64,000 nt of DNA from an uncultured Candidatus Actinomarina sp. GTDB lineage: Bacteria; Actinomycetota; Acidimicrobiia; Actinomarinales; Actinomarinaceae. The stretch lies in the NCBI GenBank assembly GCA_902610815.1, contig CACLXG010000003.1:1-64000 (forward strand), written 5' to 3'. Positions within the stretch are counted from its first letter, which is position 1. Each line of letters starts with the position of its first letter. A model generated the notes under the pieces. That model made no database searches. It was given only the letters and a program-made list of their open reading frames with translations, and was not told the origin of the DNA. Position numbers and translations under genes: made by a program. Below are positions 10,199 to 43,794 of this stretch, one piece after another.

Positions 10199-11206
10199 CT
10201 ATGGAAGAACTAGTTGTGCTATAAATAATTGATAAGTTGGATTTTTCATTGGATCAGCCATATCATTTGTTGCCCCACTCATAACCAGCAAATATGTTCC
10301 GTTATCAAGTGGTACTCCTGTTGGGTCTAAATAACTAAAATCTTTTTCAGTTATTCTCTTTTTACTAAATTCCCAATCTAAGCCATCTCTTGAGGTTGCG
10401 TAAAATAAACTTTGGGGTATGTCAGGAAGGTAGTGTGGTGTGTATGACATTACAGCTCTCCAGTCTCCTTCTTCCGCTTTTAAAACTTCAAAGTCGACAT
10501 AGCCGTCATCAATTCTGTATCCTGGGTCAAGTGTAAACTCAATCCCTTTTGTTGTTTTTGACGTTGCACTCGCAATTTTCTCAGGTGAGAAATTATCCTC
10601 TGTATATACCCAGTAAACTCTTACCAAACCATTTGGCGTAACTACTGTGTCGGGAACGCCCCAAGCTACATCATCTTCTCTAGCTGTAATACCCAAAGGT
10701 GTTTTCTCAGTATACGAGAGCCCATCTTGAGAAAAAATTGCAGTATAAATACCACTTTCCATTGTGTTTGGGTTCATTTCCACAAAATAACCCCTTCTTT
10801 CACCATCTAGGGTTTCAATCAAAGTTAGGTCTGTAATAAATCGAATGGTTCCCTGTTTTTCACAATCAAAATCGTAACTACAAAGAAAAACTACAACACC
10901 GCCAAAATCATTATAAAAAAGTCTTAAAGTTGACTCATCTACGATTTCCATATGCGAACTTGTACCGTAATGATCTATAGGTTTTATGTTTTCAATCGTT
11001 ACAGCTGGATTTTCCTTACTTACTGAATCAGATTTATTATTTGTCTCAGTTTGGGCGGTTTCTTCCAAGTTTTCAGTTGCTTCTAAATTGTTCACCTCAG
11101 TTTCTATATCTTCTTCTACAGGTTCATTTACATCGATAGAGGAACCGCTACCACACATACCAAAAGCTAATATTAAAAAACATAAAATAAACTTTTTTTC
11201 TCTCAT
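10199..11206 (-). CDS. Beta-propeller lipoprotein (paralogue of the next gene)
   Basis: 335 aa. Lipoprotein signal with lipobox LAFGMC (Cys18), an acidic Glu/Thr/Asn-rich linker to about residue 75, then a beta-rich domain with repeated 'FYATSRDG', 'YWVYTED' and 'FSQDGLSY' elements, typical of sialidase or glycosyl-hydrolase-like propellers. The last 230 residues are about 70% identical by eye to the upstream gene, and both end in LVLP. It overlaps that gene by 4 bp. No catalytic set can be assigned. A surface glycan-binding role is possible. Confidence 0.75.
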   Translation of the reverse strand: MREKKFILCFLILAFGMCGSGSSIDVNEPVEEDIETEVNNLEATENLEETAQTETNNKSDSVSKENPAVTIENIKPIDHYGTSSHMEIVDESTLRLFYNDFGGVVVFLCSYDFDCEKQGTIRFITDLTLIETLDGERRGYFVEMNPNTMESGIYTAIFSQDGLSYTEKTPLGITAREDDVAWGVPDTVVTPNGLVRVYWVYTEDNFSPEKIASATSKTTKGIEFTLDPGYRIDDGYVDFEVLKAEEGDWRAVMSYTPHYLPDIPQSLFYATSRDGLDWEFSKKRITEKDFSYLDPTGVPLDNGTYLLVMSGATNDMADPMKNPTYQLFIAQLVLP

Positions 11207-12444
11207 GGCAGTACTAACTCAGCAGTAAACAATATATGTTCTCTATCTCCCATAGTGTTAGGAGCAGCTGAACCTACAACTAAAAAGTTTTTGTCATCAA
11301 TTTGAATGGCTGTAGGGTCGAAGTAAGAATACCCTTTAGGAGTTATTCTTTCCTCGATTAAATCCCACTTTAACCCATCTTTAGATGTTGCATAAAATAA
11401 GCTCTGAGGTATTTCGGGCATATAATGAGGAGTGTACGACATTAGAGCTTTCCAGTCTCCTTCAACAGCTCTTATTACTTCAAAATCTACATAGCCATTT
11501 TCTAACCTGTACCCAGGATCCATAACAAACTCAACACCCTTAGTAGTTTTGGATGTTGCACTTACAAGTTTTTCATCAGAGGTCTTGTCTTCTGTATACA
11601 CCCAATAAACTCTTATCAAACCATTTGGCATTAATACAGCATCTGGCACTCCCCAGGCGATCTCATTCTGATCTACAGGAAACCCAAGCGGTGTTTCATT
11701 ACTATAACTCAATCCATCTTCTGAAAAAACAGCAGTAAAAATATCTTTCTGTTGGGTTTGGGGATTTAATGAAACATAGTAGCCTCTTCTTACCCCGTCT
11801 AGTGTCTCGATTATTGTTAGGTCTGACATCCTCTGAAGAGCTCCTTGTAATTCACACTTAAGCTCATAATCACACAATGATACTGCTATCCCTTTTACCT
11901 CAATGCTGCTGTAAAATAATCTGAGTGTCTTGTCATCAACTTTTTCTAAATGAGGACTTACGCCATCTTCATCCAAAGATCTAATATTTTCAACGCTTGC
12001 AAAGGAAGTGGCGTAGTAGGTTTCTTGGACACTTTCATTATCATAAAGGGTAGTTTCTTCTTTTATTCCTATTCCAGGTGGTCCAGGAAGATTACATAAT
12101 GTGAAATAATCCATATGCTCCTGAAGAATTGCCCCTTCCTCCATTAAGCTTTTTTCCATACTCTTAAGAGATTCTGTACTTGAAATTTCTGCTATACATT
12201 GCTTCTCATTATCTGGTAAAAATGAGAGTGCTCCTTGAGGGAATTCTTTAAGGACTTCTTCAATATCAGCTATTTCAGTATTTGTTTCTTGATTTGATTG
12301 CTCTTGTTCTGAATTGCTTTGTGTATTTGTTTCTTGATTTGAATTTTGTTCCTCCGAAATTTCACTAAGACTTGTTTCTTCAGTACTGCATGAAATTAAT
12401 AAAGAAAGGAATACTGCTACAGATAAAGTTAGTTTTTTATTCAT
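11203..12444 (-). CDS. Beta-propeller lipoprotein with N-terminal Cys-pair module
   Basis: 413 aa from the ATG at 12444, chosen because it begins the lipoprotein signal (MNKK, lipobox SLLISC) one base after the upstream stop. A start six codons further upstream would lengthen the signal needlessly. A Gln/Asn/Thr/Glu-rich linker is followed by a helical segment bounded by two Cys (about 33 residues apart) and a C-terminal propeller domain shared with the downstream paralogue. Middle gene of a three-lipoprotein operon. Confidence 0.75.
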   Translation of the reverse strand: MNKKLTLSVAVFLSLLISCSTEETSLSEISEEQNSNQETNTQSNSEQEQSNQETNTEIADIEEVLKEFPQGALSFLPDNEKQCIAEISSTESLKSMEKSLMEEGAILQEHMDYFTLCNLPGPPGIGIKEETTLYDNESVQETYYATSFASVENIRSLDEDGVSPHLEKVDDKTLRLFYSSIEVKGIAVSLCDYELKCELQGALQRMSDLTIIETLDGVRRGYYVSLNPQTQQKDIFTAVFSEDGLSYSNETPLGFPVDQNEIAWGVPDAVLMPNGLIRVYWVYTEDKTSDEKLVSATSKTTKGVEFVMDPGYRLENGYVDFEVIRAVEGDWKALMSYTPHYMPEIPQSLFYATSKDGLKWDLIEERITPKGYSYFDPTAIQIDDKNFLVVGSAAPNTMGDREHILFTAELVLP

Positions 12445-12445
12445 A

Positions 12446-14977
12446 TCATCTAGAAGGGGCAAAACCAGTTAATCTGTTCGAAAATTTAAATTCACCAACC
12501 CATAAATAATATCCATCCCAGTGAACTGATGATGCCATTTTAGTTCCTGTTCCTGTTTTTCCCGTGTCCCCCCCGAATGACATGGTATGACTTCCACCAT
12601 TTAAAGCCTCCTCTATGCTGTTCCATCCAACAACCCTATCTTTGCCTTGCTCAGCTATGAAAAATCCTTTTTCATTTATGCTAACACCCTGAGGAAAGTC
12701 AGAGTATCCCGGAACAGGTTTAAATACTTCACCTTCAAGTTCTGAAAGTTTTATTGCATGCACTGATTGCCCAGAACTAGGTGATGGTGCGAACACAAGC
12801 CAATCGCTATTCATATCCATTCTTCCAACCCCTACTGGCGATGACAAGGTATGTCTTGGTTCGTCCGTAATTGCCGGTATACCTTCCCAAATATATATCT
12901 TTTTTTCAGTTGTTCCTATTGCAAAGTAAGTTCCGTTATACGCAACTCCTTTAATAGAGTTCAAATTGACAGAGCCTATTTCGGAAGTGTTTATATCAAA
13001 AGAATAATTTCCCGATTCTAATGTTGCTTCAAAGTCATACCAGCCAAAAACTTTATTCCTACCAGCAATAAATAGGGCCTTTTCATTAAAAGTATTGTCC
13101 CAAGGTTGATCTTCAAACCTTCTAAAAACTAAATCTGGTTTAGCCCCATTGCTGCCTGGATGTTTCTTCCAAACAGATAAAGACCTATCAAAACCTGAAG
13201 TCACAATAAATGTGTCACCATCAGACTCTGGAACAGGATTTTGTATTATAAAGTCATCAATTAATGGATAATCAAGAATGTTTTCTGTCATTAGTGACCA
13301 ATCTGGTTTTGTAGTAGCAGAAGTTGGTAACGAATCATAAACAGATATTCTATTTCCATTATATTCAGCAATAAATAACTTCCCATTAGCTACGGTAGCT
13401 CCACCATCATCTCCTCCTGCCCATCTATGCCCTTGCCCTGGTAGCGCATTTTTTGCATTTGATTTAAGTTCTGCGGATGTTTTATAAAGATCATCCCAAA
13501 GATATAAAAATTCACCACCTGCTGGTATTGAATAAATTTTTCCATTATCTATGACACCCGAAACCCATTGCTCAACACATGCATCAGGGTCTTTAGATGA
13601 TGTAGGCCATGATGTAAATACATGAGTAGATCTATTTCCATTTACCCCGGAACAAGGTCCTGCAGCATTCTCATCACCAACCATAACGTAATCACCATTT
13701 GAAATAATTGACCTTGGTGTACCAATTTGACTTGATTTAAGAGTTACATCTGGCGGTGTAGTTGGTCCTGGAAAGTTGTTCCAAAATAAAATAGTTTCAG
13801 CGACTGTAGCAGTTATAACTGTCTTTTCACCGTTTGACCAGACACCCCATGGCCAAGAATCTCCCATGCTGACATAATTTGTAACCGGTATAGCATAATC
13901 TGCAGATTGACCAGACACAGTAGGAAAAGTTGTCCAGACTAAAACTCTGTCATTCTCAGAGTCAGCAACAAGCATTTTGCTATCTGGGGTAATAATTACT
14001 TGACCAGGAAAGTTTAGTTGATTTAAAGCTGATCCGTGATTTTGAGTTGTAAAATTTGGTTGCCCGATAACTATATCGGGGTCTGTTTTTTTATTTGGTA
14101 TATTGTTCCAGATTAAAATTCTGTTATTAAACCTGTCTGTTACTGCTAACTTTTCTCCATTTGATGAGACAGATACAGGATGGTTAAGTTTCGTTTTTCC
14201 TCCTGAGTTGTTGAACCCATATCCGGATAATATAATATCTGCTGATTCATTTAGGCCAAAACTAGTATTTGAGTTACTAGCAGCTATAGAATATGAGGAG
14301 TCATACTCATATACATTTAATGAGTACCAATCATCAAACACTTCTGGGGAACCACTTTGTTCTACTGCTGTGTTTTCTGATTCTTCATTTTCTCCATCAT
14401 AAGAATCACTTGATTCTTTTGTTGACCCTTGTGGTTCTTCATTGCATTGAATAACAATTCCAGCTTCAAATTCATCAGGCTCAAGATCATCTACTACCTT
14501 TTTATATACTTCTTTACCAAAATAATTTGAAATACAATCTAGAACTTCTTGGGTGGCGTTTTGAATTACTCCAATTGCTCTTTCTATAGTTTGTTCACCT
14601 GACTCTTCTGGTCCTTGTCCTTGTGGTCCCTGTTCTTGTGGTCCCATACATCTAGCTATCCTTTGTTCTTCTTCTGAAGTAGGTCTTTCATTTTGCAATT
14701 GCTGAAATCGTTCCTCACCAAATTCATCTTTTAAACAGTTTGCGTACTCAGGATTTAAAAAAGGATTTTTATTATTTTGAGGCTGAACTACTTGTTCTTC
14801 TTGGACTTCTTTCTCAATAATTTCATTTTCAACTGTATTTTCTGATGCTTTAGGGGAGTTTATAGGTGTATCTTCTGGAATTTTCTCTAAAGCAGCCTGA
14901 TTTTCAGTATTTTCTTCGCCAGAACATGCTTGAAGTAATAAAAATAGAATAATCCCTATATTTATTGACTTTTTCAT
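12446..14977 (-). CDS. Large lipoprotein with NHL-like beta-propeller
   Basis: 843 aa. Lipobox LLLQAC near residue 18, then an acidic linker, two Cys-bounded helical segments (about 28-29 residues between the Cys, at about 80-110 and 160-195) and a long propeller from about residue 230. NHL-like blades are visible: VTDRFNNRILIWNNIP, VADSENDRVLVWTTFP, IAEYNGNRISVYDSLP, each pairing a basic-Asn-Arg turn with a 'W/Y-x-x-x-P' strand. Such propellers usually mediate binding. It leads the operon with two related lipoproteins and has a perfect TATAAT six bases before the ATG. Confidence 0.8.
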   Translation of the reverse strand: MKKSINIGIILFLLLQACSGEENTENQAALEKIPEDTPINSPKASENTVENEIIEKEVQEEQVVQPQNNKNPFLNPEYANCLKDEFGEERFQQLQNERPTSEEEQRIARCMGPQEQGPQGQGPEESGEQTIERAIGVIQNATQEVLDCISNYFGKEVYKKVVDDLEPDEFEAGIVIQCNEEPQGSTKESSDSYDGENEESENTAVEQSGSPEVFDDWYSLNVYEYDSSYSIAASNSNTSFGLNESADIILSGYGFNNSGGKTKLNHPVSVSSNGEKLAVTDRFNNRILIWNNIPNKKTDPDIVIGQPNFTTQNHGSALNQLNFPGQVIITPDSKMLVADSENDRVLVWTTFPTVSGQSADYAIPVTNYVSMGDSWPWGVWSNGEKTVITATVAETILFWNNFPGPTTPPDVTLKSSQIGTPRSIISNGDYVMVGDENAAGPCSGVNGNRSTHVFTSWPTSSKDPDACVEQWVSGVIDNGKIYSIPAGGEFLYLWDDLYKTSAELKSNAKNALPGQGHRWAGGDDGGATVANGKLFIAEYNGNRISVYDSLPTSATTKPDWSLMTENILDYPLIDDFIIQNPVPESDGDTFIVTSGFDRSLSVWKKHPGSNGAKPDLVFRRFEDQPWDNTFNEKALFIAGRNKVFGWYDFEATLESGNYSFDINTSEIGSVNLNSIKGVAYNGTYFAIGTTEKKIYIWEGIPAITDEPRHTLSSPVGVGRMDMNSDWLVFAPSPSSGQSVHAIKLSELEGEVFKPVPGYSDFPQGVSINEKGFFIAEQGKDRVVGWNSIEEALNGGSHTMSFGGDTGKTGTGTKMASSVHWDGYYLWVGEFKFSNRLTGFAPSR

Positions 14978-14989: not shown

Positions 14990-15139
14990 TGAATTTTTTC
15001 CAAATTTTAAAAGAAAAACAAAAGAATATTAAACTTAATAATAAGACTTCCTTTCGTGCTTTGAGCCACTTTTGAAGACGATAAAACAAAAATTTACAGC
15101 CACAGGGAGTCTTTTTACTATTTTTTACAAAAAAAGGTC
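14990..15139. other. Non-coding stretch left of the small RNA pair
   Basis: AT-rich, with no credible gene. It holds a weak long-range inverted repeat (GACTTCC near 15049 and GGGAGTC near 15109) and the motif CTTTTTAC...GTAAAAAG. Part of it resembles a decayed copy of the RNA repeat to its right. Confidence 0.4.
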
Positions 15140-15228
15140 GTAAAAAGTGAAAATCCCGATTGATCTTGCGACCCTTCGGGATTTTCTTACTATTTTCTAT
15201 TCGGTCTTGCGACTTCATTTCTTATAGT
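15140..15228 (-). ncRNA. Small RNA candidate, copy 1 of a tandem pair
   Basis: About 90 nt on the minus strand. It has a sigma70-type promoter (TTGTCA, 17 bp, TATTTT) and ends in a strong hairpin AAAATCCCGA-N16-TCGGGATTTT (15150-15185) followed by CAC and a T-run. The body aligns with copy 2: both have TCGCAAGA near the 5' end and again in the terminator loop. A single-base indel between the copies within the body shifts any reading frame, which argues for RNA rather than peptide. Function unknown. Confidence 0.6.
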
Positions 15229-15234
15229 TATTTA

Positions 15235-15263
15235 AAAATAGTGGGTTTTTAATAATTTGACAA
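15235..15263 (-). promoter_or_regulatory. Promoter of small RNA copy 1
   Basis: Minus strand: -35 TTGTCA (15258-15263), exactly 17 bp, -10 TATTTT (15235-15240). A TTCGCGAA palindrome (15283-15290) is centred about 58 bp upstream of the expected start. Confidence 0.6.
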
Positions 15264-15282
15264 GATATTTTGGTCCGTTTTT

Positions 15283-15290
15283 TTCGCGAA
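15283..15290. promoter_or_regulatory. TTCGCGAA palindrome upstream of small RNA copy 1
   Basis: Perfect 8-bp palindrome at the same distance from the promoter as in copy 2. The motif also occurs twice in the oriC/rpmH gap. Possible regulator site. Confidence 0.45.
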
Positions 15291-15354
15291 CTTTTATACA
15301 TAAAATTAATAAAATCAAAACTATTTAGGTAGTGTTGTAAAGTTGAATGCCTCA

Positions 15355-15446
15355 ACAAAAAGCAAAAATCCCGATTGATCTTGCGACCCTTCGGGATTTT
15401 CTGTTCTATCTTCTTTTCCATCTTGCGATTTCTTTTCCGATAGTGT
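15355..15446 (-). ncRNA. Small RNA candidate, copy 2 of a tandem pair
   Basis: About 90 nt on the minus strand with promoter TTGCAT, 17 bp, TATATT. It ends with the same 36-base hairpin as copy 1 (15365-15400), here followed by TTTTTGCTTTTTG. The 16-base loop is identical in both copies, more conserved than a plain terminator needs, and exposes TCGCAAGA, which also occurs near the 5' end. It lies downstream of the convergently irrelevant, same-strand gene ending at 15520 but has its own promoter. Confidence 0.6.
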
Positions 15447-15452
15447 TCTATA

Positions 15453-15481
15453 AATATACGTTAGTTTTTGTTCTTATGCAA
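15453..15481 (-). promoter_or_regulatory. Promoter of small RNA copy 2
   Basis: Minus strand: -35 TTGCAT (15476-15481), exactly 17 bp, -10 TATATT (15453-15458). Confidence 0.6.
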
Positions 15482-15500
15482 GAAAATTACTAAGGTATTT

Positions 15501-15508
15501 TTCGCGAA
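15501..15508. promoter_or_regulatory. TTCGCGAA palindrome upstream of small RNA copy 2
   Basis: Same palindrome and same position (about -58) as in copy 1. Next to it, TGTGGATTA (15514-15522) resembles a DnaA box with one mismatch. Confidence 0.45.
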
Positions 15509-33150: not shown

Positions 33151-33194
33151 TTTTAGAAACTTCATTCCTTCTCTCGAGGATTGTTGCTTTACAA

Positions 33195-33288
33195 ACATTG
33201 AAGGCGACCTGACTTATCTTTCGAATCACAGTTGCGGGACAGCGTTAGAATTTCACTAACTTCGCTTCAGTATCCTTTTAAAATGTTA
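33195..33288 (-). promoter_or_regulatory. Cobalamin riboswitch
   Basis: On the minus strand the conserved B12 box GCTGTCCCGCAACTGTGA (33226-33243) is followed by AAGTCAGG (33207-33214) and preceded by a GTTAG-TGAAATT-CTAAC stem, the core arrangement of AdoCbl-type riboswitches. It lies between the gyrA-DUF3566 unit and the btuF-like gene and should lower expression of the latter when B12 is plentiful. Confidence 0.88.
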
Positions 33289-33293
33289 GCAGG

Positions 33294-41262: not shown

Positions 41263-41548
41263 AACTCCGCTTACAACTTCATTAAACTTAAACGACAGTG
41301 TGAAAATTTCATAGAGTGTGAAAAACATATTAATTTTTCACAAGGTTCATCAACAATTCAAGAAACCCAATGTTTACTGAGGATTATATGTTCAAAACTA
41401 TCAAATAATCAACAACCCCTTGTGGTTATAGAATCCTAGTTAGTTTGTTTTTCGCGAGTTAAAAATTGTTTTCGCGAACATGTAAAATTAAAAAAAATTT
41501 TGGTTTGTTTAAATACTCTATTCATTTATTGTTAGTTAAAGGTAAAAA
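41263..41548. other. oriC: Probable origin of replication (oriC) between dnaA and rpmH
   Basis: Gene direction reverses here: dnaA, dnaN, gyrBA leftward, rpmH to parB rightward. The gap holds regularly spaced DnaA-box-like 9-mers next to dnaA, two TTCGCGA(A/G) sites 20 bp apart (41451-41458 and 41471-41478) and an AT-rich run (41480-41530) that could unwind. Many Actinobacteria place oriC between dnaA and dnaN, but that gap is only 104 bp here. Confidence 0.65.
41299..41342. promoter_or_regulatory. Three DnaA-box-like 9-mers
   Basis: TGTGAAAAT (41299-41307), TGTGAAAAA (41317-41325) and, inverted, TTTTTCACA (41334-41342), starting 17-18 bp apart just upstream of the preferred dnaA start. They deviate from the TTATNCACA consensus by one or two bases. 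Confidence 0.45.
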
Positions 41549-42227: not shown

Positions 42228-43030
42228 AACCATTTGCACTTGCTATAGGGATTTTACTTTCCTATGTATATGAATTTACGCTCTCATACGGCTTTGCCAT
42301 AGCTATTTTGACCGTAATTATTAATGTAATTATTTTTCCCCTTACATTGAGACAAACCAGATCTACAAAAAGAATGCAAGACGCACAGTCTGATATAAAA
42401 AAACTTCAAAAAGAACATAAGGATAATAAAGAAGAATTAAACAAAGCTATGGCCGCTATGTATAAAGAAAAGGGTATTAACCCACTTGGATGTATACTCC
42501 CCTTAATTATTCAAATGCCCATCTGGTTTGCTTTATTTAGGGTCTTAAGAGAGCCCTTAGACTTTATTCCTTCGGCCTCAGTGCTTTTTAAAGACCTTGA
42601 AGTAAGTACAAACCTTACTTTTTTTAATATGAACCTTCAAATACCTCCCGCTGAAGTATCAGGCTGGGTTGAAAGAGCACCATATTTAATATTAATTTTG
42701 TTTGTTATTTTGACTGCTTTATACCAGCAGCAACAAATTACAAAAAAAACAGGAAAAAGCGACAATCCTCAAGCCCAACAAATGCAAATGATTGGTAAAG
42801 TAATGCCAATATTTTTTGGATTTATCTCATGGACATTACCAACAGGACTTGTCGTTTATTTTTTAACTGGAAATATATTTCGAATTGGTCAACAAGCATT
42901 AATTGTTAAGCTAGATGACCGCGAAGAAGTAAAAAAAGAAGAAAAAAAAGAGGACAACAATGAAGACACACAATCAAATCCAATTCAAGAAAATCCTCGA
43001 AAAAACCGCAAAAAAAGAAGGAGAAAATAG
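42215..43030 (+). CDS. yidC: Membrane protein insertase YidC
   Basis: 271 aa from a TTG inside yidD, of the short Gram-positive-type (Oxa1/SpoIIIJ). Five core helices with GFAIAILTVIINVIIFPLTLRQ, the cytosolic hairpin (AMYKEKGINPLGCILPLIIQMPIW) and PTGLVVYFLTGNIF. The C-terminal tail is strongly basic (NRKKRRRK), fit for ribosome binding. Catalyses insertion and folding of membrane proteins. Confidence 0.93.
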   Translation: MAILEPFALAIGILLSYVYEFTLSYGFAIAILTVIINVIIFPLTLRQTRSTKRMQDAQSDIKKLQKEHKDNKEELNKAMAAMYKEKGINPLGCILPLIIQMPIWFALFRVLREPLDFIPSASVLFKDLEVSTNLTFFNMNLQIPPAEVSGWVERAPYLILILFVILTALYQQQQITKKTGKSDNPQAQQMQMIGKVMPIFFGFISWTLPTGLVVYFLTGNIFRIGQQALIVKLDDREEVKKEEKKEDNNEDTQSNPIQENPRKNRKKRRRK

Positions 43031-43794
43031 TGGCAAATAATAAATGGGTTGAAGTTGAAGCCAGGTCAATTGATGATGCTATTAAGGCTGGCTTAAACGA
43101 ACTAAATCTTGATGATGCTACCCAAGCAAACATAAACATACTTAGAGAGCCAGAAGGTGGCGTGTTTGGAGTGGGCGGTACAAAGGCACTTGTAAGAGTC
43201 TCTGTAAGAAACGGTGGGTCCAGAAACTATACAAACAAAAGACGCAACAATAATCGAAACAATCATTCCAAAAACTCCAATAAAAATGGGTATAAAAAAC
43301 AATATGATTCAAAAAAACCGAGGGTTGAGGCGGATAAAGACGAACAACTCAAGGTTTCAATTGATTTTTTAAAAGGACTAGTTAAGTCTTTTGGGCTCAA
43401 AGGAGATGTCGATGGAAGCTTGGAAGGTGATAATTTAGTGGTGAAAGTTACTGGAGAGCAAACAGAAGCTCTTGTTGGTGACAAAGGTTTTATTATTAGG
43501 TCTTTACATGAACTAACCAGAACGGTGGTACAAAGAAAAACAGGTGCTGGAACCAGACTTAGACTCGATGTCGCAGATTATGCACTAAAACGTAAAGAAG
43601 CACTTACTATTTATGCTGAAAGACTAAGTAAACAAATACTAGAAGATAAGCAAGAAGTAATGTTAGAACCAATGAATTCTGTAGATCGTAAAACCTTACA
43701 TGATGCAGCTACAAATTTTGAAGGAATAAAGTCATATTCAGAAGGAAGAGAACCTTACAGATCTGTAGTGTTTGCACCTGAAGAAGAAGAATGA
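43030..43794 (+). CDS. jag: Jag/KhpB RNA-binding protein
   Basis: 254 aa from a GTG overlapping the yidC stop. Jag N-terminal domain (VEVEARSIDDAIKAGLNEL...GGVFGVGGTKALV), a basic low-complexity linker (NKRRNNNRNN), then KH (about 130-180, VGDKGFIIRSLHELTRTVV) and R3H (EPMNSVDRKTLHDAA) domains. Binds RNA and influences cell-envelope growth in other bacteria. Confidence 0.9.
   Translation: MANNKWVEVEARSIDDAIKAGLNELNLDDATQANINILREPEGGVFGVGGTKALVRVSVRNGGSRNYTNKRRNNNRNNHSKNSNKNGYKKQYDSKKPRVEADKDEQLKVSIDFLKGLVKSFGLKGDVDGSLEGDNLVVKVTGEQTEALVGDKGFIIRSLHELTRTVVQRKTGAGTRLRLDVADYALKRKEALTIYAERLSKQILEDKQEVMLEPMNSVDRKTLHDAATNFEGIKSYSEGREPYRSVVFAPEEEE

Follow-up and report, generated by a model that had tools for sequence, protein, structure and literature searches.

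A predicted multi-copy small RNA family with paired GNRA-capped hairpins and an upstream TCGCGA box in the genus Actinomarina

The window analysed in this work is a stretch of 64,000 nucleotides from an uncultured Candidatus Actinomarina sp. Its minus strand carries two units with a start-to-start spacing of 215 bases, each consisting of TTCGCGAA, a promoter, a predicted RNA of about 85-90 nt and a terminator. In copy 1 (type A) the upstream box TTCGCGAAAA is at 15281-15290, with TTCGCGAA at 15283-15290, the putative promoter is at 15235-15263 (-35 TTGTCA 15263-15258, -10 TATTTT 15240-15235, 17-bp spacer), and the RNA extends over 15140-15229, with a predicted 5' end at 15229-15228 and the end of the terminator at about 15140. 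In copy 2 (type B) the box is at 15499-15508 (TTCGCGAA at 15501-15508), the putative promoter at 15453-15481 (-35 TTGCAT 15481-15476, -10 TATATT 15458-15453, 17-bp spacer) and the RNA at 15355-15447, with a predicted 5' end at 15447-15446 and the terminator ending at about 15355. The tandem paralogous arrangement, its period, the two promoter pairs with their spacing, the upstream TTCGCGAA site and a terminal hairpin of 36 bases (AAAATCCCGA-N16-TCGGGATTTT), in which the two copies do not differ, had all been described in an earlier note on this DNA and were borne out. Two copies is the correct number for the window; a whole-genome search found three in this genome (G000), the third being located at G000:C5:42023-42180. 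The RNA copy of this third unit, at G000:C5:42025-42122, is identical to that of copy 2, and the comparison of these two shows that paralogues may match over the whole unit.

Downstream of the pair, at 11203-14977 on the minus strand, there are two lipoprotein-like genes, one of them with an NHL repeat match; relatives have different lipoprotein genes at this place. A second conserved RNA-like element (TAAGACTTCC...GGGAGTCTTTTT) lies on the plus strand at 15040-15120 and converges on copy 1. Some 10 bases ahead of it there is a -10-like box, TATTAAA(A)T. Across the genus the element has 32 distinct sequences and occurs at places distant from the sRNA as well (L017, L020, L026); its closing stem is fully paired on the plus strand only, and it gave no Rfam match. 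The sole Rfam match in the window was an AdoCbl riboswitch (RF01482, 52.2 bits) at 33154-33290 on the minus strand.

The RNA is predicted to form two hairpins. Its predicted start, at the base of hairpin 1, precedes the first TCGCAAGA by about 15 bases and lies earlier than in the previous description, which had missed this hairpin. Hairpin 1 has a CUAUC/GAUAG or ACUA/UAGU stem, a nine-by-nine purine internal loop and the cap (G/A)UC-GCAA-GA(C/U). In copy 1 (15189-15228) a 5-bp stem and a purine-rich internal loop carry the cap GUC-GCAA-GAC (15213-15204), and in copy 2 (15406-15443) the CUAUC/GAUAG stem and the 9x9 purine loop carry AUC-GCAA-GAU. Hairpin 2, at 15149-15186 in copy 1 and at 15364-15401 in copy 2, consists of the AAAAUCCCGA/UCGGGAUUUU stem with the cap GGUC-GCAA-GAUC, and is followed by a T-rich tail as in an intrinsic terminator. 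The repeated TCGCAAGA reads UC-GCAA-GA, a short stem capped by a GNRA tetraloop. In folding, both copies surpassed all of 200 dinucleotide shuffles, with z-scores of -5.2 (copy 1) and -4.4 (copy 2) in one run and -6.4 and -5.6 in a second.

Compensatory changes in the alignment support the two hairpins. In the alignment 92.7% of the cells were paired, compared to 30-49% in a slid control, which preserves the relatedness of the sequences. Cells changed on both sides numbered 36, spread over six pairs, against 12.9 ± 3.4 in shuffled alignments, a comparison that can be inflated by the kinship of the sequences. In the cap stem of hairpin 1 an exchange between G-C and A-U is compensated (26 against 20 sequences), and RNAalifold, unaided, recovered the same two hairpins. 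Many pairs are invariant, so that covariation provides only a weak test for the interior of hairpin 2. Among 52 distinct units both loops are always of the GNRA type: GCAA (44) or GAAA (8) in hairpin 1, and in hairpin 2 GCAA (50), GGAA (1) or GAGA (1), the last with a compensated stem pair.

In a DNA search the unit was detected in 31 of 34 other genomes of the genus and in none of 24 genomes from other genera. A covariance model was constructed with 46 distinct copies and matched copy 1 at 15144-15240 with 109 bits. Of 42 Actinomarina genomes, 36 contained the RNA according to this model, usually in 2-4 copies, including all eight of those at least 90% complete; the six genomes that gave no match at an E-value of 0.01 are not among these eight. 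The earlier note had proposed such a covariance search in related Actinomarina genomes. When 148 Acidimicrobiia genomes were sampled, about 110 of them from outside the genus, clear matches of the model were confined to Actinomarina; two weak matches in other Acidimicrobiia (E-values 0.02 and 0.12) were treated as chance. The exact hairpin pattern matched 48 stretches in 84,980 species genomes, all titled Actinomarina, Actinomarinales, OCS155, Acidimicrobiia or unspecified actinobacterial. Viral contigs had no exact match, and a phage or viral origin was rejected on this ground. Such recurrence over the genus, together with the promoter geometry described below, shows that the paired units in the window are not a product of chance.

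A scan against Rfam 15 gave no match at gathering score, the best E-value under relaxed settings being 2, and neither 6C, nor SRP RNA, nor any other Rfam family could be assigned as the identity of the RNA. Bacterial small SRP RNA (RF00169) was not found at an E-value of 1 in this genome and 38 relatives, with 13 of 14 controls positive; the SRP RNA of Actinomarina may have disappeared, may have diverged strongly, or may have escaped the first-look filter. Mimicry of 16S helix 27 (here GGUCGCAAGACU) was also considered and rejected, the likeness being no better than that of dinucleotide shuffles (84 and 161 of 500). A literature search found no publication containing the string TTCGCGAA, and no mention of small RNAs was found in the Actinomarinales genome paper (PMC7771536). 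It is very probable, and well supported by the comparisons above, that the RNA represents a previously unlisted family, its transcription being predicted from the sequence. The presence of several closely related copies per genome, all of them furnished with a promoter and a terminator of their own, makes it a candidate family of sibling sRNAs.

TCGCGAA shows no variation among 78 distinct units, the TCGCGA box lies 26 bases upstream of the -35 element in 77, and the spacer between -35 and -10 is 17 bases in most. In 33 genomes of the genus TTCGCGAAAA had 134 matches (summed by hand), compared to 39 for the reversed pattern, and nearly all intergenic sites were at three places: the sRNA promoters, a whiB-family gene (PF02467) and the rpmH-dnaA intergenic region. 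The whiB box is 51 bases ahead of the gene and 16 bases from the -35 element, one helical turn closer than the sRNA box. In the window there are five TCGCGA words, namely the two sRNA boxes, one within rpmH, and a plus-strand pair at 41451-41480, whose words lie 20 bp apart at 41452 and 41472 and precede the rpmH promoter. The boxes at whiB and at the rpmH promoter, which belong to two growth-related genes, recur across the genus. The rpmH cluster with its TCGCGA pair (41452-41477) also encodes, at 43030-43794, a KhpB/Jag protein (R3H, Jag_N), from a family of RNA chaperones found in Gram-positive bacteria; nothing ties it to the sRNA. The simple reading of the shared box would be one regulator for the sRNA, whiB and the rpmH operon. 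Since the whiB gene itself has the box, WhiB is a candidate for this regulator, a possible link based on co-occurrence.

These features point to a genus-specific family of sibling sRNAs made from independent units, co-regulated with rpmH and whiB and probably binding a protein, a composite reading that we regard as evenly poised. Each copy would be its own transcription unit, with a TCGCGAAAAA box, a sigma-A-type promoter and two GNRA-capped hairpins, the second acting as terminator; this architecture is deduced from sequence and covariation, and transcription of the unit is presumed. A regulator binding TTCGCGAA, possibly WhiB, would set the level of the sRNA together with that of the rpmH operon. 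The two similar GNRA hairpins, side by side, would bind a protein and serve as decoy or scaffold in a quantity set by gene dosage; the dosage and the occurrence of identical paralogues are in keeping with an RNA that is required in quantity. Protein binding seems the most likely mode because little sequence is left free: the predicted 5' end lies at the base of hairpin 1, the two conserved loops are closed tetraloops and there is little linker; we favour it over pairing of an exposed seed with mRNAs, with confidence somewhat short of even. RNAs of the CsrB/RsmZ type, with repeated similar hairpins, bind and titrate a protein. The proposed mode of the Actinomarina RNA resembles theirs, whereas their GGA loop motif is missing from it.

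The strongest alternative, which we consider possible although the less probable course, is a base-pairing sRNA that acts as antisense through the TCGCAAGA loops or through the purine strands of hairpin 1, in the way of the C-rich loops of mycobacterial 6C/B11. Multi-copy sibling sRNAs with their own promoters and terminators often pair with mRNAs (PMC4211561), and the seed of B11 is the loop of its terminator (PMC12395582). The Neisseria siblings NgncR_162/163 are likewise several near-identical sRNA genes per genome, and the Actinomarina pair is also tandem; the Neisseria RNAs, however, are base-pairing post-transcriptional regulators, whereas in the Actinomarina RNA no exposed seed was found. 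The earlier note had proposed a small regulatory RNA family exposing TCGCAAGA as a fixed 8-base seed. The family was upheld by conservation, covariation, constant spacing and the lack of a conserved start codon, but the seed was not: TCGCAAGA is a closed GNRA mini-stem whose stem changes are compensated, the loop has GAAA, GAGA and GGAA variants, and hairpin 1 reads TCGAAAGA in 8 of 52 distinct units. Nor did the target search suggested there help, since the complement TCTTGCGA has 11 sites in this genome outside the sRNA copies, in genes or 16S rRNA and mostly distant from start codons. Structure, loop variants and the places of the complement together lead us to reject TCGCAAGA as an antisense seed. 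The purine strands (GAAAAGAA) recur on both sides of hairpin 1, are fairly to largely kept, and could pair with U/C-rich targets, but at a genomic GC content of about 33-35% GAAAAGAA makes a poor seed. 6C/B11 (RF01066) itself resembles the present RNA in being an actinobacterial sRNA with two hairpins with similar loops, the last of which is the terminator. It differs in that its loops are cytosine runs pairing with G tracts near ribosome-binding sites, whereas the Actinomarina loops are closed GNRA loops (GCAA, GAAA, GAGA or GGAA, none cytosine-rich) and the RNA is multi-copy. The RF01066 model had no match at an E-value of 0.01 in 39 genomes, 23 of them of the genus (control: Corynebacterium glutamicum alone, below the cut-off).

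It is improbable that the unit is a cis-acting leader, that is, an attenuator before a downstream gene, whose hairpins are read by a protein, as in ANTAR systems, to let the polymerase pass. The terminator is indeed the second hairpin, and the start of a co-directional gene follows it at a distance of at most 45 nt in 36 out of 77 distinct downstream contexts, among such genes being those for cytochrome P450, a PolA-type 5'-3' exonuclease-like protein of 277-279 amino acids (named from sequence) and lipoproteins. Against this, the downstream gene starts 46-230 nt away in 31 contexts, in 10 there is no co-directional gene inside 230 nt, and several copies face a converging GNAT gene. The downstream genes are unrelated and have -10-like boxes of their own, TAAAAT or TATAAT at a distance of 7-9 nt upstream of the start codon, an arrangement expected of leaderless promoters; no antiterminator pairing was found. 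Cis-attenuation is thus unlikely in view of these boxes and of the converging gene at some copies, and the varied downstream contexts make a free sRNA the most likely form of the RNA. ANTAR target RNAs are similar in having two adjacent hairpins with a common loop motif near a terminator. They differ from the Actinomarina RNA, which has GNRA tetraloops, a hairpin 2 that is itself the terminator, and standalone copies. ANTAR target loops are hexaloops with A at position 1 and G at position 4 (PMC3369931); read as a hexaloop, the loop here is CGCAAG, with C at position 1 and A at position 4, and an ANTAR-controlled attenuator was rejected on this ground. A search of the genome for the ANTAR domain (PF03861) gave no match, the control genomes being likewise silent.

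It is very improbable that the unit is a mobile or repetitive cassette of promoter and terminator, spreading between genes without regulatory function. Copies do lie between different gene pairs across clades and are sometimes identical, but a local repeat search revealed neither target duplication nor terminal repeats, and compensatory substitutions and fixed promoter geometry indicate selection on RNA and promoter. Moreover, the lineage that has retained the unit is one in which coding density is 97%, the median spacer is 2 bp and paralogues are very few (PMC7771536). A small protein-coding gene (e.g. KIPKGRKINRDF in both copies) can be dismissed: open frames span both hairpins, but the ATG of copy 2 (GATGG) reads GATAG or GATTG in most relatives, leaving no conserved start codon, substitutions track base pairing, and indels between the unit types shift the frame, as the earlier note had argued from the body.

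Actinomarina comprises tiny marine actinobacteria that are widespread and uncultured and have almost no spare DNA in their genomes. Actinomarinales have been reported to combine a coding density of 97% and a 2-3 bp median spacer with limited regulatory capability, and to have two sigma factors and about 40 paralogues (PMC7771536). Several non-coding units of 160 bases are notable in genomes so compact, and the retention of 2-4 copies under such streamlining implies strong selection. A more specific and rather speculative reading, which we think unlikely in its full form, is a new class of growth-coupled riboregulators in a streamlined bacterium with very few regulators. Their two GNRA hairpins would bind and titrate a protein, and a single factor that binds TTCGCGAA would switch them together with WhiB and with ribosomal protein L34 of the rpmH operon. 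As an sRNA with no obvious pairing seed the RNA offers a testable case, and the covariance model is ready for use on metatranscriptomes. The sRNA, whiB and the rpmH operon would constitute the first candidate regulon for Actinomarina.
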